Assembly: GCA_018228705.1 (NCBI GenBank)
Contig: CP073694.1
Span: forward strand, 2,480,001-2,544,000
Source: Dysosmobacter sp. Marseille-Q4140
GTDB lineage: Bacteria > Bacillota > Clostridia > Oscillospirales > Oscillospiraceae
Direction of reading: 5' to 3'
DNA: 64,000 nucleotides
The notes beneath the pieces were generated by a model. The model saw only the letters and a program-made list of their open reading frames with translations. It was not told the origin of the DNA and made no database searches. Made by a program: the position numbers and the translations under genes. Of the stretch, positions 36,978 to 50,267 are shown piece by piece. Every line of letters begins with the position of its first letter. Position 1 is the first letter of the stretch.

Positions 36978-38837
36978 TTATCGCACCTCCTGTTCGTGGT
37001 GTTTTGGTTTCTTTTCGGGATTGCGCGGAACCGGGCGTTTCAAGCCCTCCAGCACCGAGGGGCGGCTGCTCTTGGCAAGAACCGCCTCCGGCGCAGGGCG
37101 GCCCCGGCCGTCCATGTTCAGCAGTACGTCCAGTTCGGCCAGCCGGGCGGACTTTACCCGCAAATCATCCTCAAAAGGGAATGGCTTACCCACCTCCGCC
37201 TTGGCGGCGGCCTGCTGCTGGTAGAGATTGTCCAGTTGGTTCTTCACCGCCTCCAGCCGCTGGGGCATCTGACTGAGCGCATTGTCGATACGGGTGAGGT
37301 TGCCGCGGGGGTCTGTGCCCAGCGTCGCCCGGTGGGTCATCTGGCCTTTCAGCAGGAGCATATACTCTTGCCGGAAAGCGTCAAACGACACCGACATAGC
37401 GAAGCCCCGGTAACTGCCCACCGGCACCGGGTCGGTCCCTTTGACCTCCTTGCAGGCGTCCAGCAGCGCGGCCCCGGCGTTCTCCTTGTCGGTGAGGGTG
37501 TCGCCACGGACTTCCATCCCGGCAAAGCCGTCCTCCGGGTGCGGGTGTTCCGCCAGCGTTTTCATATCCGCTTCCAGCCCGGCGATAAATCCCTTGTTTT
37601 TCTCGATCTCCTCCGGGAAGGTTTTGAGCAACTGGTCCTCCAGGCGGTACTGCTTGCTCTGGTGGTCGGCCTTCATCAGCTTTAACCGCGCCACGTCCAC
37701 ATCCAGGTCCATGCGCTCTTTGATGCGCGGGTCCCCGGCGCACAGCGCCTTGATCTCGGCAAAGGACAGCGCCGTTTCGTCCACATCGTCGCAGCTTCGC
37801 ACCGGCGATTTGGAGGTCATGATCTGGCTGATGAATTTCTGCTTGTTTTCCACCGTCTGCCAGAGGTAGGCGTCAAACGTCCCCTCGGTGACATAGCGGT
37901 ACACATGGACGGTCTCGTTCTGGTTGCCCTGGCGCTCGATGCGCCCCTTTCGCTGGGCCAGGTCGCCGGGCCGCCACGGACAGTCCAGATCATGTAGCGC
38001 CACCAGGCGGTCCTGGACGTTGGTGCCCGCGCCCATCTTGGCGGTGCTGCCCAGCAAAACGCGCACCTGGCCGGTGCGGACCTTGGAGAACAACTCCTTT
38101 TTGCGCACCTCGGTGTTGGCCTCATGGATAAAGGCGATCTGCTCGGCGGGCACACCTTTAGCGATGAGCTTCTGCCGGATGTCCTCATACACGGTAAAGG
38201 CCGGTTCCGGCTCATCCAGCGGCACCGCGTCCTCCAAAGCGTGGAGGGTCGGGTTGTCCAGCGCCTTGGCTACCTTTTTGGCGGGCCGGGCCTGGGGCGT
38301 GGAGATGTCGCAGAACACCAGCTGGGTCAGCTTGTCAGCCTCGCCGTCCCGCCAGATCTGCATGATGTTGTTCACGCACTGATTGACCTTGGTGCCCGGC
38401 TCATCCGGCAGCAGCTGGTTGATGATCCGCTGGTCCAGGCCCAGCTTGCGTCCGTCGCTGGTGATCTTGAGCATATTGTCCTGGGACGGGTCCACCGTAC
38501 CGCTGTGTACCAGGGAAGCGCGCTCCGAGAGCGCCTTCACCATTTCCTGCTGCTGTTCGGTGGGCTGGGCCACGATGTTGTGGTACTCCACCTGGGGCGT
38601 GGGCAGGTGCAGCTGGTCGGCGGTTTTGATGTCCGCGACCTCCTTAAAGAGGTTCATCAGCTCCGGCAGGTTGAAAAACTTGCTGAATCTTGTTCTTGCC
38701 CGGTAGCCGGTGCCCTCCGGGGCCAGCTCCAGCGCCGTCACGGTTTCGCCAAACCGGGACGCCCAGCAGTCAAAGTGGGCCATGCCCAGCTCTTGCAGCC
38801 GGTCATATTGGAGATACCGCTGCATGGTGTAAAGCTC
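36978..38837 (-). CDS. SNF2-type helicase/N6-methylase, 3' exon (619 residues)
   Basis: This is the C-terminal part of the giant helicase, reading ELYTMQRYLQ from the intron junction. It contains the helicase C domain: QLVFCDIS, the late motif GSTAKMGAGTNVQDR and the arginine-finger region QRKGRIERQGN. A helical C-terminal region follows. Frame and homology join exactly to the 5' exon when the group II intron is removed. Without splicing, the protein would lose motifs III-VI. Confidence 0.85.
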   Translation of the reverse strand, partial: ELYTMQRYLQYDRLQELGMAHFDCWASRFGETVTALELAPEGTGYRARTRFSKFFNLPELMNLFKEVADIKTADQLHLPTPQVEYHNIVAQPTEQQQEMVKALSERASLVHSGTVDPSQDNMLKITSDGRKLGLDQRIINQLLPDEPGTKVNQCVNNIMQIWRDGEADKLTQLVFCDISTPQARPAKKVAKALDNPTLHALEDAVPLDEPEPAFTVYEDIRQKLIAKGVPAEQIAFIHEANTEVRKKELFSKVRTGQVRVLLGSTAKMGAGTNVQDRLVALHDLDCPWRPGDLAQRKGRIERQGNQNETVHVYRYVTEGTFDAYLWQTVENKQKFISQIMTSKSPVRSCDDVDETALSFAEIKALCAGDPRIKERMDLDVDVARLKLMKADHQSKQYRLEDQLLKTFPEEIEKNKGFIAGLEADMKTLAEHPHPEDGFAGMEVRGDTLTDKENAGAALLDACKEVKGTDPVPVGSYRGFAMSVSFDAFRQEYMLLLKGQMTHRATLGTDPRGNLTRIDNALSQMPQRLEAVKNQLDNLYQQQAAAKAEVGKPFPFEDDLRVKSARLAELDVLLNMDGRGRPAPEAVLAKSSRPSVLEGLKRPVPRNPEKKPKHHEQEVR

Positions 38838-41343
38838 ATAAGGTAGGAAACGCCACGCCATACTTCCTTTCGTCCGTGGTCTTGGCGTAACCCCCTCCAG
38901 AACCGTGCTTACACCTCTCGATGTACACGGCTCGCCATCTTTCATAGTTTAAGTGATTTTGTCTTTGCTTCTTCGTAGCATTTCGGGCAGAGAGCCAATG
39001 ACTTCCGCCTTTTCAGTAGCATCAGTTCATCAAATTCATTATCAGCGTTCAAATCTTTTAAGCGCTTTACATGGTGCATATACACTTTCACGGGGTTTGC
39101 TCCGCACATCTCGCATTGTCCGCTTTTTAAACGTCCTGCAAGACTATTCGGTTTTATCTGCCCTCTGTATTTCGGCATAATGTCTACAAATTCAGGTGCG
39201 ATATTGTTATTACGCCTAAATCCTTCATTGTAAAACTCACACCGCTTTGTTCCACTCTTGGTTTTGTAATCTGCGCCAAAGTCGCCCTTTACGCTACGGT
39301 ATTTCTTATACATCTTCATAACAGAAGAATTATATTTTGCCGCCAACGTCTTTAAACAGCTTCCACGCATGATAGAATGAAATTTCCCCAGATTGCATAC
39401 ATTGATTGCTAACCTGTAATAATTGTACAATCCTCTGATTTCAGAATTATATTTACTGATGATTGCCACATCGTCTAATGGCATAAGCGCCCCTCTGTGG
39501 AGTGGCTTCCAAATCTCTTTGCCGTTTTCGTCTTTTTTGATTTTAAACGCACCGTATTCGTGCAGTTTCGCAATCCATTTTTCTTTCGGCATATATAACT
39601 GCACTTTTCCATACCACACCCGTTGCAGACCTTTTTTCGTCCGCTTTGTGTCCTGACTTCTTGATATTCTTATGTCGTATCCAAGATACCGCACCTTTTC
39701 AGAGGAATGGGTAACGTGAGTTTTCTCCTCCGACATTGTGAGATTTAGCTTGTCTTTTAGAAATATCTTTACCTGTTCCTTGATATTTTCAGCATCCTGC
39801 TTTGAACCTGTTATTGAAATCAGGAAATCGTCAGCGTAACGGTTGTATTGAAGTCTTTTGTAATTCTCATCCATCTCGTCTAAATGTGGTGTGGACAACA
39901 TCACTTTCCTTGCTTCTTTAAATGCTGCTAGGTTTGCTTCTGTGCGCTCTATTTCCAGATTTTTCTGCGCTTTCCGATAAGCCCAGCGTACCTTATCATG
40001 GTCTTTGTGGACTTTACGGCTTCTTGTATCGCCTTTGTCAAAACTCTTTTTCATCCTTGCCATGAACTCATCAAGTTCATTCAGATAGATGTTGGCAAGT
40101 ATCGGACTGACACCGGAGCCTTGTGGACTGCCGGAGTACGTTTCATGGTATGTCCACTGTTCCATATATCCTGCCCTTAGAAACTTCCACATCAGCGATA
40201 TGAACGCTTCATCTTTTATGCGCTTTCTCAAAAGCTGTATTGTGATATGGTGGTCGAAGCTGTCAAAACAAGCCTTAATGTCTCCTTCGATTATCCACTT
40301 TGCACCAGTGAACAGCGTTACGATTTCTTTTAACGCTGTGTGGCAACTTCTTTTCGGTCTGAAACCATGTGAATTATCAGAGAATGTCGGCTCATAGATT
40401 GCTTCAAGTATCATACGGACAACTTCCTGTAACAGTTTATCGTCCGTTGACGGAATCCCCAATGGGCGCTTTTTACTGCTGTTTTTCTTCGCAATATAAA
40501 CACGCCTTGCAGGGTTCGGCTGGTATGAGTGGTCTCTCAGCTTCTGAATGAGCTTTTCAATGCGCTCCATGCTCATACCGTCAAGAGTGAATCCGTCTGC
40601 ACCTGCCGTCATGCTCCCCTGAGAGGTCGCAATATTCTGGTATGCAAGCAGATAGAACTCTGGGTTGTACAGGTTACGGTATAATCTCTCGTACCTGTAC
40701 TCTTTGTTTTTTGCTTTTTCACTTAAACTTTTCAATACATTTTCGGGACTTCTCATAATGCCTCACGCACCTTTCCTTATTATTTGTATTGAAGAAAGAC
40801 TGTCTCCCTTCGCCATGTGGACGGCTTTCCCGTCCTCGGACTACTACGGAGACTCTGTTGCCATAGTAAATATTCAGAGTCACTTTTCTCATAGCACTCA
40901 TAGCCGATTTTCGGCATTTTACCTTAGGCAATCCCCGTTTAGAACTGTAATAACATAAGCCTGTTATGATTTCGGATGTGACGTTCGTCGTTTTCCATTA
41001 TCCTATGGCTGATTTACTCTGGGTATCTTGTGGATACGCATGGCCGACTCATATCCACCAGAGTACATGCGAGTATAACTTCCTTACGCATGGAGCAACA
41101 TTTTGCCCAATCTCCGACTGTCATTCAGGCAGTTTAGCTTTCATCCTTATTCATAACTTTTCGCCACTACCACGCAAACACTTTGGAAGTTTCCGTGTTT
41201 CGTGCCCTCCGACATGCTACACTCCCCATCGGGTTTCCCCTTTTGGATAAGTCGGGTGACGATAGGGTGCGGATTATTCCGCTTTGATACCTTGCCCTAT
41301 TACTTGCTCAAGGTAAGATTATTACAGCCCCTTACGGGCGCAC
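38838..41343 (-). mobile_element. Group II intron (complete, 2,506 bp)
   Basis: The intron starts GTGCGCCCG at 41343 and ends CCTACCTTAT at 38838. Domain V (38900-38933) begins GAGCCGTG and ends CACGGTTC, the catalytic 34-base hairpin; domain VI follows. Domains I-III occupy 40757-41343, and the maturase is encoded in domain IV. Removal joins TCC ATG ACC to GAG CTT TAC in frame (SMT-ELYTMQRY), so both intron boundaries are well defined. It is in the same orientation as the host gene and should be able to splice. Confidence 0.9.
38942..40756 (-). CDS. ltrA: Group II intron reverse transcriptase/maturase
   Basis: This 604-residue protein has an RT domain with SGSPQGSGVSPILANIYL and the catalytic NRYADDF, a maturase (X) domain, and a C-terminal HNH endonuclease (CEMCGANPVKVYMHHVKRLK, LALCPKC). 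All catalytic residues appear intact, so splicing and retrohoming look possible. An insertion of about 60 residues (KVHKDHDKVRWAYRKAQ) lies within the RT fingers-palm region, as in some clostridial introns. Confidence 0.93.
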   Translation of the reverse strand: MRSPENVLKSLSEKAKNKEYRYERLYRNLYNPEFYLLAYQNIATSQGSMTAGADGFTLDGMSMERIEKLIQKLRDHSYQPNPARRVYIAKKNSSKKRPLGIPSTDDKLLQEVVRMILEAIYEPTFSDNSHGFRPKRSCHTALKEIVTLFTGAKWIIEGDIKACFDSFDHHITIQLLRKRIKDEAFISLMWKFLRAGYMEQWTYHETYSGSPQGSGVSPILANIYLNELDEFMARMKKSFDKGDTRSRKVHKDHDKVRWAYRKAQKNLEIERTEANLAAFKEARKVMLSTPHLDEMDENYKRLQYNRYADDFLISITGSKQDAENIKEQVKIFLKDKLNLTMSEEKTHVTHSSEKVRYLGYDIRISRSQDTKRTKKGLQRVWYGKVQLYMPKEKWIAKLHEYGAFKIKKDENGKEIWKPLHRGALMPLDDVAIISKYNSEIRGLYNYYRLAINVCNLGKFHSIMRGSCLKTLAAKYNSSVMKMYKKYRSVKGDFGADYKTKSGTKRCEFYNEGFRRNNNIAPEFVDIMPKYRGQIKPNSLAGRLKSGQCEMCGANPVKVYMHHVKRLKDLNADNEFDELMLLKRRKSLALCPKCYEEAKTKSLKL

Positions 41344-44300: not shown

Positions 44301-47001
44301 AGTGATTTTCCTGCTCGATCTGCTTCAGTGTGGCGATTGCTTTGATGTTGCGCCAGAACTTTTCCTTTGGCCCGCCTTTCCCCAGGTCATCGTCCAGAAT
44401 GCGGAAATTCTCAGGCGGACGCTGTTCGGGCGGCGTGGGTTCGGGCCGGTCAACGTGCAGCCGCTCCACCACCACGTCATAGGGAAGTCCGTTTTTGTCG
44501 CCGGGGTAGACAGCCACCGTCTCGGAGTGGAACGCCGGTGCCTCGGCGGCTTCTTCAATGGGCTTGGCGGGTTCGGCAGGTTCTTCCACGGCGGCAGGGA
44601 CTTCCATATACGGTTCATCCTGCTCCTGTACGAAGCCGTCCAGCTGGCGGGCATACAACCCGCGCAGCAGCGGCGCGACTTCATCCCAGCGGAAGAACAG
44701 CATGGCCAGCCGCTTTTCGTCCGCGTCCAGCACTTCCAGCTCAATGCCTTCGGGTATGGTGCGGTAGTCGGAGGTATCGCCGGTCTCCAGCTCCATCGTC
44801 TCGATGATGTCAGGATAGGCCCGGCTCAGCCACAGGGCGACCTCCCGGTTGCTCTTGCCGGTACGCAGCAGTTCGGAAAGCTCCGCCTTGTCCGGCGCGC
44901 CGATGAGGCCGTGGGTCAGCACGTCCCGTAGGTCCTGGTCCGCCGTGTCGGGGTTGACAGGCAGGAACTCGGTGTAAAAGTCGTTGCGGTTGTCTGCCCG
45001 CAGAAGCTGCTCGAACCGTTCCCGGCTTTCGGCCCGGTAGATGGGATAGCTCATGCCGGTGGGCAGCAGCTGCACCGTATCCTCTCGCAGTTCGGTAATC
45101 TGGTGGGCGCGGTCATCCAGATAGACGGTATCGCCCACGTTGTAGACCGGGGCGGACGGGTCGTAAGAGGTGCGCTCCGGGATAGTGCCCCGGATGGCGG
45201 CATATTCCTCGTCCGACACCGTGATGTCGATCTCATGGGTGGGTTCACCGCTGCCGATGGTGAGGGTGTCTCCCTCGCGGGTGACGGGCTGGCCGGATAA
45301 GTCCGGCACAGGCGGCTTCGATGCGGCCTCGGCCTGTTCTTCTGCCGCGACGGCCTCCACATCCCGCATGACCTGCTGGATGAACGGGTCGTTGTCCAGC
45401 TTTTCCGGGTCCACCACCTGGCCGTTCACGATCCCGCGCTCGGCCAGGACCTCCCGGATGGCGATGGGGTCGATGTTGTCAAAACGGTCCTGCTCCGCCT
45501 CGGTGTAAAACCGATCTTCCTTGATGAGCTGTGCGATCCGGCGCTGCACCTTGGGCCAGGGCACATCGCCCGCCGCGCCGTCCACCGTCACAGGCAGGGC
45601 CGGGAGGTCATCGCCGTACTCCTGCCGCAACCAGGCGGCGGTGTCCTTTTCACGGGCGTGGTCCTTCATGTAGCGGACAACTGCGTGCTTGCTCTCGATC
45701 TTGCCGTTCCATTCCTGGATGGCGGCGTCGATCTCCGCCTGGGTTAGCGCCCGGCGCACAGGTTCCGCCTGCGCAGCGGGCTTGGACATAGAAAAAGCAG
45801 AGGGCGTTTTCACACTCTCTGCTTCGTCGATATTCTGGATTTGTTCCGCTTCGGAGAGGAACAGGTTTAGGGTCAGCTGTTGATAAGCTCCGCCAGCAGA
45901 ATCTCCTCCGCCTGGGCCTTGCAGGTGTTCATCAGGCCCACCCAGGCCATCGGGTCGCGGGCTTTCAGTTCCTCCGTCGCGCCCGCCGACTCTGCCAGCC
46001 GGGGCATCATCTGATCCAGACGGCTGTTCGCGGTCTCGTCGATCTCCCGAAGATGCGGGTACAGCTTCTCGCTCATCAGCAGCTGGTTGTAGAGGATGGG
46101 CCGGTGTTCTTTCAGGTACGCTTTCCTCATCCTGCCGTACTTGCCCAGGGGCTTCTCCGGCTGTTCGGACAGCTTCAGGTCGGGGATCAGGTAATCGCCG
46201 TTCCTCGTGTAAGTCAGGTTGTTCTCCATGTGTGGCACTCCTTTCCGCGCTCTTGGCGCGCTCATAGTTCTGGATGGTGACGCCGATCTGCCGCAGCACC
46301 TGCTGGTTTATCTGGCTGACCGCCGTGCCCAGCGCCCCCACGGTAGCGGGGGTATTGAAGTCGAAAATCGCCATGAAATCCTCATGGCTGAAATACTGCT
46401 CCGGCTCCAGCCCACAGCGGGACATCAGGGCGTAGGTGATGCTGACCGTGGCGGCGGATTTGAACTGCATCCCGATGTTTTCTTCATCGTACTCTTCCAA
46501 AAAGGAACCGTCAACGATGTAAAGAATGTCTTGCCGGTGGTCCGTCCAGTATTCTTCCGCCAGACCGGCAGCCACATCGGCCAGCTGCTGGGCCAGGTCT
46601 CCGCCGCCTACGTCATAGTTTCGCTCCAGCATCGCCATGACCGGCGCGGTGTGTTCCTCGTTCATCGTCCACAGCCAGGGTGTGCGGGAGTGTTCACGGG
46701 TGCCGGTGTCGGAAATATCAAACACATACCGCAGCCGGGGCCGGTCCCCGGAATCATCCACCAGGGCGATGCCCTTGGACCCGCGCCGCACATACCGGCC
46801 CATGCGGTTGTTCCACAGGTCGTACTCGGCGCAGGCGGTGGCGTCCGGGCGCTGGGCGTAGATCATCAGCTGCTCATGGAACGGATATTTGTAAAGCCGG
46901 GCGGCGGTGGTGAGAAAGCCCGCCCACTCCTGCCAGCTGCCGGTGAGCTGCCGCGCCACCTGGTCGGCCATCTGCGCATATTGTTCTGCTTTGGTTGGCA
47001 T
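41344..47001 (-). CDS. SNF2-type helicase/N6-methylase, 5' exon (1,886 residues)
   Basis: This giant protein of Tn1549-like ICEs has an ArdC-like N-terminus (about 1-110), a low-complexity Arg/Pro/Gly/Asp linker (about 258-376) and an N6-adenine methylase domain (LEPSCGVGNFFG near 985, GNVPFGQY near 1049). The helicase N-terminal domain follows (Walker A EVGAGKT near 1664, FVDEAHNYKN near 1826), ending at motif III GTPVSNSMT. The start is ATG 47001 behind GGGAGG. The linker coincides exactly with an out-of-frame tnpV gene. With the 3' exon the product has 2,505 residues; it probably prepares or protects transferred DNA. Confidence 0.87.
45873..46229 (-). CDS. tnpV: TnpV family protein, overprinted in the helicase linker
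   Basis: This 118-residue frame starts at ATG 46227-46229 with AAAGGAG well spaced. The sequence (ENNLTYTRNGDYLIPDLKLS, RMRKAYLKEHRPILYNQLL, YPHLREIDETANSRLDQMMP) matches the TnpV family of transposon-encoded proteins and looks like a folded helical protein. It lies on the same strand as the helicase but in another frame, and covers exactly the helicase's low-complexity linker. Both frames are open through the whole stretch. Confidence 0.75.
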   Translation of the reverse strand: MENNLTYTRNGDYLIPDLKLSEQPEKPLGKYGRMRKAYLKEHRPILYNQLLMSEKLYPHLREIDETANSRLDQMMPRLAESAGATEELKARDPMAWVGLMNTCKAQAEEILLAELINS

Positions 47002-47077: not shown

Positions 47078-47293
47078 TTACTCGTCAAAATCCGGGTACA
47101 GCTCCAGCTCGTCAAACTCGGCGTCGGGCATGGCGCGCAGCTTGGCGAGGGTGCTGTCGGTCAGGGCCAGCAGCTCGGCCTCGTCCGCCTGCAAGTGGCC
47201 GCGCATCTCGGTCAGGGCCTCGATGGCCCCCTGGCGGGTGCCGGGGTTGTAGATGCACAGCAGGTTGGTTTCCTCAAAGGTCAAAGTGTTCAT
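47078..47293 (-). CDS. Transposon-transfer assisting protein (TTRAP family)
   Basis: The 71-residue acidic protein (MNTLTFEETNLLCIYNPGTR) matches the small TTRAP family found in Tn1549-like elements. It starts at ATG 47291-47293, one base after the upstream stop. The role is unknown beyond its association with transfer. Confidence 0.78.
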   Translation of the reverse strand: MNTLTFEETNLLCIYNPGTRQGAIEALTEMRGHLQADEAELLALTDSTLAKLRAMPDAEFDELELYPDFDE

Positions 47294-47294
47294 A

Positions 47295-50267
47295 TCAGAT
47301 CTCCCTTTCCGCGCTCTTTTTTGGCGCTGTCTTTTTATGTTCGGGTTTGGGCTGGCTTTTCAGCTGCTCCACAACGGATTTCTTCTTGTCCCGGTCCTCC
47401 CGGTGAGCGGCGGCAGCCAGGTCCATCAGGGAAATGGGCTGGCCGCTGCGGGCCTGCTGTTCCAGCTGGGCCACCGTCTGCTCCTTGGGGCCGTTGTTGA
47501 GAATCCCGTCGATCATGCCGTAGTCATCCTCCACGGCCATCTCTGCATTTTTCAGCGGATTGTCCGGCAGGAAGCCGGGCACCTCGGCAAAGCCGAAGCT
47601 GTCGCAGTAGTGACAGGATACCTTGCCGTCCTTCTTGATGGCAACAATGTCGCTGACGCTCATGGACGGGTGGCGGTAGTCGGCGGGGTGTTCGTTGTTG
47701 AAGCGGTATTCAAGATTGTCCAGCACGCTGCCTTTCAGGTCGCCGGGGGCCAGCGGCGCGGTGTAGACCAGATCATAATTGTCCCGCTGCACCGTGCGTC
47801 CGATGGACTTGATCCATTCCAGCCCCTCATAGCGGATGTCCCGCAGCTCATCGGTGTGCTTCACCTGGTAGATGGCAAAGCAGTCGCCCTTGTGGCCGAG
47901 GAACGCCTGTTCCCGTTCCTGCTGGTGATCCATACGCTCCTTAACCTGGGCATCGAAAGCCGGGCTTTCCTCCCATTCCTCGCGGGTGACGGCGAAGATC
48001 CCGTCATGGGCGTCCAGGTCAGTGGTATCAAAAGCCATCGCCGGATTCTCGCCCTGCTGAACCATGTAAACGGTCAGGTCCTGCGCCATCAGCTCATAGG
48101 CGCGTTCTTTAGAGAGGGGCAGAAGGTCCCCGTCCAGATAGCCGCATTTCTCCAGATCGTCCTGGGTCAGCGAGGGGTCGGGCATAGGGTATTCGTCCAG
48201 GTGCTGTTCCGGGGCGTCCGGCAGCATGGTAGTTTCCGGCGTGGTGGCTTGGGCCGCTGCCTGCATTTGTTGGACAGCCGCCTCCTGCAAAGTTTCGATC
48301 ATGGACAGCGGCGCATACTGAACGGATTTGCTGCCCATGTCGTGCATCTCACAGATTTTCAGTGCGGCGGTGGACAGGGGCAGCTCCGGCGCGTCCTTCT
48401 GGCCGCCGTCCAGTTGCTTCCTGGTGGCGGCATCGTAGAGTGTGTAATCCCAGCCGGTGTCGCAGGACTGAACATGAAGATAGGTGGCTTCATCAACCAG
48501 CAACAGGGCCTCCTGGGCTTCGGTGCTGGGGGAAGGTGTGTCGGGCATTTCTTCTGCGGGCTGCTGGGGTTCAGCCTGTTCCGGCTGGGCGGTCAGGTCA
48601 ATACCGCGCTCCTTGCAGATTGCTTTATAGTGCCGGTCAATATCTGTGATCAGCTCTCCGGCGGCCGTGTTGATGGTTTCCAGACTGGCCCGCAGCTCTG
48701 GCAGCGTCTTGTCCTGGCTCCAGGTGGCGATATAGCCGAAGCTGTTTTCGCCGGTTTGGATGCCGTAATACTGGCAGACGGCGTAGGAGATGCTCTCGGC
48801 CTCCACCTCCTCGGTGTTGCGGTTCTTGACAGCCTGTTTCACCGCCGTCAGATCTTCCTCCACCTCCAGCCGCCACTCAAACTGATTTTCGTCCACATAG
48901 CGCCAGTCATCCTCGGCGGCGGCCTGTTCTGCCTCTGCTTCGGTGGCGAAGTCCAGGCGATAATCGTGCTTGACACCGCCCCCACTCACCATCACGATTT
49001 TCCAGGTCGGCTCCGCCTCATACTTTTTGGGGTCGTGCAGCTTGCTGTGGGCGATCTCATGGACGGCGGCGGAAACGGTCTGTACCTCGCTCATGCCTGC
49101 TCGGATGGCGATGCGCTGCTGGTCCGGAGAGAAATACCCGTCCATGTTGGCGGCCATCGGCTCCACAGAAAGCGGCACCGGCGCGGACCGGCGCAGGGCT
49201 TCCATGAAAGCCTCGTAGTTCTGGACGTTCCCGGACAGGGAGGACGCCAGCTCCGGCAGCGGTTTCCCGTCTGTCTGGCTTACATCGAACACCTTCACCG
49301 GACGGAACATGGGAATCTCAACTTCCCGTTCCTCCATGATGATCTTGCCCTCTGCATCCAGCATGGGGGCTTTGGTGTCCGGGTCCAGTTTCTGTTCCTC
49401 GATCTTTTTCTTGAACGGTGTGGGCGCGATGATGGTAATGCCATGCTCACCGCGCTTCACATGGCGCTCAAACTGATTTTTCCACTTGTTGTATCCGGCC
49501 ACCAGCGTGGCGTCCGGCTTCTGCATATAGATGAGCATAGTGTTGTTGACGGAGTAGCGGTGGAACCGGGACATCACAGACAAGTAACGCATATACTTTT
49601 CGCTCTCAAACAGCTCTTTGATGCCCTGCTCGATGCCCACCGTGATTTGCTGCAACCGTTCCCGGTTGGTGGGTTTGTCAGCCATGATTTTCACTCTCCC
49701 TTCTATGGCCGAAATTTCAGCGGTATGTTCTGCGATCCACTGGTCCTGTTCCTCGGTACTGCTGTCGAGAAAGGTGTCCAGCAGATAGCCCATGTAGTCT
49801 TTTTTCTGGACGGCCTCCAAAAAGCGCGGGTGCGGGTCCTCGTCCGGCGTCTTGGGGGAATAGTCGGCCTCCCATTTTCGGAGCAAGTGATAGTAGTCCG
49901 TCAGGACGCGCCAGCCGTGTTCTCGTTTTTCTTTCCGCACCTGCGCCTCAGATTTTTGCCGGACATAGCTTCGCCGGAGCGGGGCCTTGCTGTCATAGGA
50001 AAGGCCAAAATCCTGGGCCAGCTTCTCGGCGGCCTCCTTGGGGGACAGGTCATAGAGACGGGCGGTGAAGTCGGTCACGTCGCCGGTGGCCCCGCAGCCA
50101 AAGCAGTAGAAGTAGTCCTCGTTCAGCTTCAGGCTGGGGTGCCGGTCATCGTGGAAGGGACAGCAGGCCATGCCGCCCCGGTTGACCTCGATGCCGTACA
50201 GTTCTGCCGCCTCCCGGACGGTGACGGACTGTTTTACGACTTCAAATACGCTCTCGCCCATACTCAC
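47295..50267 (-). CDS. CHC2 zinc-finger primase / ArdC-like / DUF4316 fusion protein
   Basis: The 990-residue product begins with a CHC2 primase zinc finger (MACCPFHDDRHPSL, YFYCFGCGATGDV; ligands near residues 35-58). From about 195 an ArdC-like ssDNA-binding region (FHRYSVNNTMLIYMQKPDAT) and a metallopeptidase-like VHEIAHSKLH (near 402) follow. The C-terminus (about 760-930) resembles YodL/DUF4316 domains. An internal ATG at residue 196 (MADKPTNRERLQ) has GGGAG just upstream; related elements usually encode two proteins here, so both a fusion and a separate second product are possible. Confidence 0.8.
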   Translation of the reverse strand: MSMGESVFEVVKQSVTVREAAELYGIEVNRGGMACCPFHDDRHPSLKLNEDYFYCFGCGATGDVTDFTARLYDLSPKEAAEKLAQDFGLSYDSKAPLRRSYVRQKSEAQVRKEKREHGWRVLTDYYHLLRKWEADYSPKTPDEDPHPRFLEAVQKKDYMGYLLDTFLDSSTEEQDQWIAEHTAEISAIEGRVKIMADKPTNRERLQQITVGIEQGIKELFESEKYMRYLSVMSRFHRYSVNNTMLIYMQKPDATLVAGYNKWKNQFERHVKRGEHGITIIAPTPFKKKIEEQKLDPDTKAPMLDAEGKIIMEEREVEIPMFRPVKVFDVSQTDGKPLPELASSLSGNVQNYEAFMEALRRSAPVPLSVEPMAANMDGYFSPDQQRIAIRAGMSEVQTVSAAVHEIAHSKLHDPKKYEAEPTWKIVMVSGGGVKHDYRLDFATEAEAEQAAAEDDWRYVDENQFEWRLEVEEDLTAVKQAVKNRNTEEVEAESISYAVCQYYGIQTGENSFGYIATWSQDKTLPELRASLETINTAAGELITDIDRHYKAICKERGIDLTAQPEQAEPQQPAEEMPDTPSPSTEAQEALLLVDEATYLHVQSCDTGWDYTLYDAATRKQLDGGQKDAPELPLSTAALKICEMHDMGSKSVQYAPLSMIETLQEAAVQQMQAAAQATTPETTMLPDAPEQHLDEYPMPDPSLTQDDLEKCGYLDGDLLPLSKERAYELMAQDLTVYMVQQGENPAMAFDTTDLDAHDGIFAVTREEWEESPAFDAQVKERMDHQQEREQAFLGHKGDCFAIYQVKHTDELRDIRYEGLEWIKSIGRTVQRDNYDLVYTAPLAPGDLKGSVLDNLEYRFNNEHPADYRHPSMSVSDIVAIKKDGKVSCHYCDSFGFAEVPGFLPDNPLKNAEMAVEDDYGMIDGILNNGPKEQTVAQLEQQARSGQPISLMDLAAAAHREDRDKKKSVVEQLKSQPKPEHKKTAPKKSAEREI

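Follow-up and report, generated by a model that had tools for sequence, protein, structure and literature searches.

According to the accessible part of one report (PMC3158075), homologues of TnpV occur in mobile elements with large serine recombinases, and a role like that of the lambda Xis excisionase has been postulated for the protein. As far as the available text of another report goes (PMC9815147), mobilizable elements that bear tnpV insert into the snf2 gene of integrative and conjugative elements (ICEs) of Streptococcus suis. Here we describe a tnpV gene that lies inside a helicase gene of Dysosmobacter sp. Marseille-Q4140, in a stretch of 64,000 nucleotides (GCA_018228705.1, contig CP073694.1, positions 2,480,001 to 2,544,000, forward strand), which is called the window below, with positions counted from its first letter. 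We consider it highly probable that this tnpV is genuine and lies in frame +1 of a helicase gene of the ArdC-like/SNF2 type, that it was placed there ancestrally, that the helicase linker over it is overprinted, and that both have been inherited together.

Compared with the described systems, the locus has a combination of its own. It shares the TnpV family (PF14198) with Tn4451-type mobilizable transposons, and among 10 standalone tnpV genes whose neighbours we scanned, five have a large serine recombinase beside them (L056, L062, L063, L068, L110), two a Mob_Pre relaxase and three other genes. In Tn4451-type transposons tnpV is a separate gene, whereas in the window it is found wholly inside the helicase gene in another frame, so that it is not the separate tnpV beside a large serine recombinase that marks a Tn4451-like element; no recombinase was seen among the neighbouring open reading frames (ORFs) scanned, that search covering these neighbours and not the remainder of the window. 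The host gene, which we take to be an SNF2/LtrC-like helicase of Tn1549-like and related ICEs, shares with such helicases a putatively ArdC-like N-terminus and methylase-like and SNF2-type regions, and differs from them in a linker of 120 residues that appears to be tnpV read out of frame and no helicase domain. The overprinted same-strand nested genes of viruses and of a few E. coli cases (PMC8227390, PMC4683798, in their accessible parts) likewise have one stretch coding for two proteins, one reading of which looks disordered and unconserved; unlike in those, here the linker of the host gene looks overprinted, the nested gene comes from an existing folded family, and the pair recurs across many elements. 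Nested overlapping genes are already known as a kind, of which this pair is an unusually widespread variant, and the portions available of PMC4683798 and PMC5810103 speak of long overlaps on one strand as few beyond the viruses. We found no earlier description of tnpV nesting within a helicase gene in the open-access literature searched, a weak negative since subscription papers mostly lie outside it. The features of the nest in the window are as follows.

47001-41332, minus strand: host gene, first exon of an ArdC-like/methylase/SNF2-type helicase, 1889 codons, an open frame that is stop-free across tnpV
46252..47001, minus strand: N-terminal domain of the helicase, here called UP, ArdC-like, residues 1-250 (AlphaFold2 model, mean predicted local distance difference test (pLDDT) 92.4)
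45871..46230, minus strand: helicase linker, codons 258-377, the apparent antiphase reading of tnpV (from composition, G+C by codon position and absence from close helicases without tnpV)
46229 (ATG) to 45873 (end of TGA), minus strand: nested tnpV coding sequence, 118 codons/amino acids (from the PF14198 match and the codon-position pattern)
46244-46238, minus strand: ribosome site of tnpV, AAAGGAG, 8 nt ahead of the ATG (from the sequence)
45859..45879, minus strand: QLTLNLF, helicase residues 375-381, overlapping the tnpV stop; a divergent form of the Q..LF motif seen in other members, not matching its strict pattern

The initial annotation had noticed a TnpV-family frame with its own ribosome site, on the same strand as the helicase and in another frame, and its coordinates proved exact: the TnpV protein matches the full PF14198 profile (1-111 of 111; E 3.1e-44, 149.9 bits against a cut-off of 27). 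The gene lies wholly within the helicase gene, where it spans helicase codons 258-377, and its first codon positions fall on helicase codon position 2 (phase 1, +1 frame) of the same strand. An alternative upstream ATG at 46265 gives a longer frame of 130 amino acids; the start at 46229 fits the ribosome site. The three codon positions of tnpV have G+C fractions of 0.59/0.36/0.87, similar to those of the helicase before tnpV (0.62/0.43/0.79) and behind it (0.66/0.40/0.80). The TnpV model (pLDDT 88.4) consists of a beta hairpin and helices. Fold and sequence searches of the PDB with TnpV gave no usable match (none at E 0.001), and we therefore make no claim on TnpV as an Xis. Because frame and place are conserved in relatives (see below), the tnpV frame is not a chance one; judged from sequence, tnpV is a real full-length gene, and the nesting is confirmed.

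The linker bears the marks of the other reading. In the helicase frame its G+C by codon position (0.87/0.59/0.36) is a rotation of the tnpV pattern, 87% of its residues are R, P, G, D, E, Q, S, A or H (56% in the remainder of this helicase ORF), and 10% are hydrophobic (31% in the remainder). These values support the reading of the 120 residues as tnpV out of frame and disordered-looking. The view that an odd Arg/Pro/Gly/Asp linker is an out-of-frame translation was thus borne out by composition, by the rotated G+C and by substitutions that follow the tnpV frame; the wording of the same annotation, in which the tnpV gene is the one overprinted, inverts the roles, as it is the helicase linker that looks like the overprinted part. 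On the helicase side, a Pfam scan found ResIII and SNF2-rel_dom above their cut-offs and methylase models below theirs, and Pfam ArdcN has no match in the helicase itself. The best PDB matches of the UP model are to ArdC of R388 (6i89, 6sna), the sole ones with probability near 1 (0.98-1.00), and they are remote (E 3.3e-3 to 1.4e-2, template modelling (TM) scores 0.37-0.47; best E 3.3e-3, TM 0.47). In a tblastn search with the window's UP, Listeria plasmid genes annotated as ArdC-like match over residues 17-100 at 42.9% identity. Related loci contain a second ORF, upstream, that resembles UP as well over roughly its first 80 residues.

For comparison, 207 loci (including the window) with 165 different TnpV proteins were assembled and scored with profiles built in this analysis. 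They came from genome contigs searched with the helicase N-terminus (27 loci), relatives of the nearest genome (26 matches, in 17 of 61 genomes), TnpV searches (one with matches in 62 of 146 genomes, another with 8 loci), a helicase-core search (21 of 98 genomes), helicase N-terminus matches without a TnpV neighbour, a few others, and plasmid and phage records; searches of viral_contigs with the helicase N-terminus and of ecoli_genomes in near mode gave no match. TnpV lies directly behind UP in 108 of the 165 cases, and in 107 of these the frame is the same as in the window; the exception (L005) has the frame shifted between UP and tnpV, with the helicase frame inside tnpV still open. No helicase-frame stop occurs within tnpV in 107 of the 108 (L161 has one), and L051 and L052 carry a break in the helicase frame before tnpV is reached. 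The UP-associated tnpV genes range from 28 to 64% G+C, and the nested set includes Clostridia, Bacilli (Cohnella L200, Enterococcus faecalis L204, Virgibacillus L205), Negativicutes (L203) and Tissierellia (L202). Host breadth is not a measure of age here because the carriers are mobile elements; divergence is the better sign of depth. UP identity to the window's UP is 23-40% in 12 of the 14 rows of alignment A1, and among 97 nested loci identity to the window drops to 22% in UP and 21% in TnpV. The relatives correct the first reading in this respect: rather than an event of this element, the nest is an arrangement that very divergent helicases have in common, in position as well as in frame.

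UP and TnpV distances agree across the 97 nested loci (Mantel r 0.93, with 0 of 999 permutations as high) and still do so among the 4222 pairs with UP distance above 0.4 (r 0.82); the nested tnpV has therefore mostly stayed with its helicase N-terminus. As loci were partly found with TnpV, the association was rechecked by searches independent of it. The helicase-core search had TnpV in place in 24 of 25 UP-bearing loci and in none of the 4 loci without UP, one of which (L179) is cut by a contig end (of 30 places, 29 were retrieved as L156-L184; the remaining one, in G062, is the nested L073 found before). In 299 phylum-wide genomes, PF14198 stands directly behind 20 of 21 UP matches of at least 190 positions, pairs being compared by coordinates (one of the 20, G212, is below the Pfam cut-off; the miss is G314). 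A Shine-Dalgarno (SD)-like site (at least 5 nt, 3-12 nt ahead) precedes tnpV in 50 of 63 nested cases, counted without redundancy, and in 20 of 40 standalone cases, and 57 of the 63 nested genes start with ATG. Separately, in L001, L002, L041 and L044 UP and tnpV are 79-86% identical to the window's and the helicase turns unlike some 10-35 residues past the linker (19-26% identity behind it, from a rough alignment only), which suggests that UP plus tnpV is mobile as a cassette; alignment of the helicase behind tnpV is unreliable where it is swapped or interrupted (e.g. L029, L043).

The helicase frame across tnpV leaves a clean trace in codon usage, since a helicase-frame stop is possible only where a tnpV codon ending in T precedes AA., AG. 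or GA. Among tnpV codons able to end in T, T is used in this stop-making context in 1 of 2380 UP-associated cases against 361 of 1158 standalone ones (Fisher 1.6e-192, a nominal value as related sequences are not independent; L057, L065, L111, L113 and L122, at contig edges, are left out of the standalone set), and T in other contexts is used by both (1088 of 5038 and 962 of 2497, respectively). A first set of 68 UP-associated genes, picked by the presence of UP and not by openness, has 0 helicase-frame stops where codon shuffling gives 182, and the frame is open in all 68 where shuffling predicts about 5. The other forward frame of the same genes holds 897 stops (867 expected), and in 54 standalone tnpV genes the frame corresponding to the helicase has 370 stops (421 expected), with none open. 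A chance open frame of GC-rich DNA is ruled out, as the pattern holds at 28-45% G+C and in one frame only. Tested as a nested overlapping pair, both frames are open beyond chance; on these counts, the helicase frame across tnpV is held open by selection.

Sequence constraint is divided unequally between the two frames. In 29 disjoint pairs the three codon positions differ by 0.169/0.116/0.281 in the tnpV frame and by 0.166/0.112/0.357 in the UP domain, which means that the helicase frame over tnpV changes fastest at its codon position 1. Four-fold tnpV sites unable to make a stop, which are linker first positions, show 175 changes against 210.7 expected from the flanking helicase (Wilcoxon p 0.027), and stop-prone four-fold sites 109 against 141.7; with change so near neutral, the linker sequence is nearly, not wholly, free. 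Linker hydrophobicity, at 0.131, lies slightly below that of codon-shuffled versions of these genes (0.145; lower in 60 of 63) and far below that of the same frame in standalone tnpV (0.245). Both members of the pair are thus under selection, tnpV by its codon-position pattern and the helicase by stop avoidance and low hydrophobicity with slight sequence constraint: constraint follows TnpV, and the linker keeps a strong openness signal, weak hydrophilicity and little else. The outcome that the initial annotation named as adverse, a conserved linker over a drifting TnpV, is contradicted by the substitution pattern. The linker as a conserved domain was also considered, and is ruled out by the near-neutral change at its first positions.

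These observations can be joined in one account. One ancestral tnpV would have come between the ArdC-like N-terminal domain and the remainder of the helicase, leaving the helicase frame open, and the helicase would since have carried a disordered-looking linker that is tnpV out of frame. Ribosomes would start inside the helicase message at tnpV's own SD site and ATG and so make TnpV; selection would act on the TnpV sequence, and on the linker mainly for a stop-free, hydrophilic state. The TnpV/helicase pair would have been co-inherited through great divergence, and copies of tnpV would have left several times and become standalone. Internal initiation, insertion rather than birth in place, a single origin and a TnpV-helicase partnership are what we infer, and the insertion event and the two products of one mRNA that the initial annotation proposed stand at the same level. 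As a working guess, the ArdC-like domain and TnpV may cooperate on element DNA that is single-stranded or under replication, the linker being a tether that is tolerated. We lean, with some reserve, to a wider version of this account: an old single nest in a large class of Bacillota conjugative and mobilizable elements, kept while helicase N-terminus and TnpV diverged to 20-35% identity, with a de novo peptide of 120 residues held open by stop purging, TnpV in obligate partnership with the ArdC-like helicase, and repeated escapes as the source of the standalone tnpV genes found in Tn4451-like transposons.

Several points weigh against this account. Nested TnpV is missing behind 8 of 117 different UP domains with room behind them, and only three of these are clean tests of 'no tnpV, no linker': L177 has UP, then about 50 residues, then QISLF, and L187 and L188 have short K/E-rich spacers behind UP. 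None of the three has the linker, in line with what the initial annotation anticipated for helicases without tnpV. The other five are weak as tests, L011 and L185 being short helicase ORFs (218 and 282 codons) and L189-L191 differing in architecture. SD-like sites also precede half of the standalone genes, and no start codon was found in 4 of the 63 nested ones. Which way the birth went is argued from parsimony, as copies of both kinds, nested and standalone, are mixed in a rootless tree of 114 columns. A former helicase frame in standalone tnpV, a stop-poor ghost, is clear in L112 only (P 0.01 in L097), and the expectation that it would be found in standalone genes near nested ones failed, with no overall trend (Spearman -0.16, p 0.25). 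The standalone tnpV of L112 (L112:2965-3306) shares 76% identity with the nested L010 and has 4 stops in the helicase frame against 9.4 expected; it is likely a recent escapee or a remnant.

In L190 (=L136) and L191 (=L131) the architecture behind UP is another one, and tnpV stands apart from the UP ORF.

L190:3771-4871, plus strand: separate tnpV directly upstream of a UP-bearing giant ORF without nested tnpV
L191 1568-2636, minus strand: the same arrangement

L189 is of similar architecture, with tnpV about 3.7 kb upstream. That an un-nested tnpV can remain adjacent to UP suggests that TnpV and UP work together.

The tnpV tree bears on the origin of the nest. It has 100 rows (61 nested, 39 not) and 114 columns and is unrooted; it omits rows shorter than 88 residues and rows whose identity to another one retained under the same label exceeds 78%, as well as L013, L148, L176 and L178 (long branches) and L113 and L122 (unclear). 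The label nested or standalone changes 12 times, at least 6 of them by well supported branches; nested tnpV is spread across the whole tree with standalone ones among them, and the standalone genes nearest to the window are L068 and L056. One place and one frame are common to the nested copies, which several escapes from one nest explain more simply than insertion many times over, and the standalone genes look like repeated escapes. A nest at the 11-bp site used by tnpV-bearing elements in Streptococcus suis snf2, as given in the available text of PMC9815147, was considered and rejected: the window has 23 matches (up to 2 mismatches) where 19.6 are expected by chance.

The same tree, with the 107 of 108 nested copies in one frame and place, would also suit a birth in place, in which the disordered helicase linker came first, TnpV arose from its alternative frame and later escaped as a standalone family. 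We regard this order of events as unlikely, since it is TnpV that has normal codon-position G+C and a confident model, with the linker pattern antiphase, and since L177, L187 and L188 do without a comparable linker. Insertion of an existing tnpV thus stays the preferred origin. Less likely still, indeed quite improbable, is that the helicase is made as two proteins, the ArdC-like domain ending near tnpV and the remainder restarting behind it so that the linker is never made. The annotation of a Selenomonas plasmid, where TnpV is given and the SNF2 gene is started behind it, and the single stop of L161 would agree with such a split; the otherwise stop-free helicase frame, down to 28% G+C where codon shuffling predicts several stops per gene, argues against it, and the stop avoidance means that read-through of the whole helicase frame is needed. 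That tnpV is a dead passenger, open only since the helicase frame must be, is barely credible, for although 6 of the 108 nested TnpVs are very divergent (26-34 bits; L013, L021, L178, L183, L202, L206), constraint tracks tnpV codon positions and not helicase ones, an open helicase frame alone does not keep the tnpV frame open, and SD-like sites and ATG starts are frequent.

Behind the linker a short motif recurs. It resembles the sliding-clamp binding pentapeptide Q..LF and may be such a peptide; the strict form of Q..LF is present in the first 80 amino acids past the linker in 17 of 61 nested helicases, compared with 7 of 628 later windows (Fisher 2.9e-14). QLSLF-like motifs stand behind the linker or in the corresponding place in, e.g., L045, L050, L160, L170 and L177, and overlap the tnpV stop in some loci. 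As L177 has the motif too, it may predate the linker.

If the wider account is true, few same-strand nested gene pairs of bacteria would be as widespread as this one, which would have stayed hidden since annotation programs give one gene or the other. In plasmid records of PLSDB, whose incomplete gene table makes the survey indicative only, TnpV is annotated without the helicase N-terminus in Cohnella (with an antisense gene over UP) and Monoglobus, and the helicase alone in Anaerococcus, E. faecalis, Virgibacillus and Ruminococcus albus, in addition to the Selenomonas case above. For annotators, this means that mobile-element helicases may lose their N-terminal part or have a gene overlooked within them. 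Some hundred divergent copies in nature, the control that standalone tnpV provides and a clean signature (wobble T nearly absent before stop-making codons) make questions on overprinting testable, such as how long a de novo peptide persists and what in it is selected. TnpV would also become tied to an ArdC-like helicase.

The helicase gene of the window is interrupted by a group II intron (38838-41332), and its surroundings contain the following features.

38838-38935, minus strand: group II intron RNA (Rfam RF00029 match)
38942-40756, minus strand: reverse transcriptase/maturase ORF (domain scan)
36978-38945, minus strand: ORF with the C-terminal helicase part (domain scan)
47078-47293: TTRAP gene (PF14203, E 3e-25), immediately preceding the helicase gene
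47295-50267: neighbouring gene with CHC2 zinc finger, ArdcN, LPD16, YodL and DUF4316 domains

The neighbours scanned in the window comprise the helicase parts, TTRAP, the reverse transcriptase of the group II intron, the CHC2/ArdcN protein, a topoisomerase, a DUF3848/3849 protein and one ORF without a match. Outside the nested set, a TnpV 41.7% identical to the window's is annotated as a gene of its own on plasmids of Salmonella, Klebsiella, Enterobacter and Citrobacter (records H84-H88).
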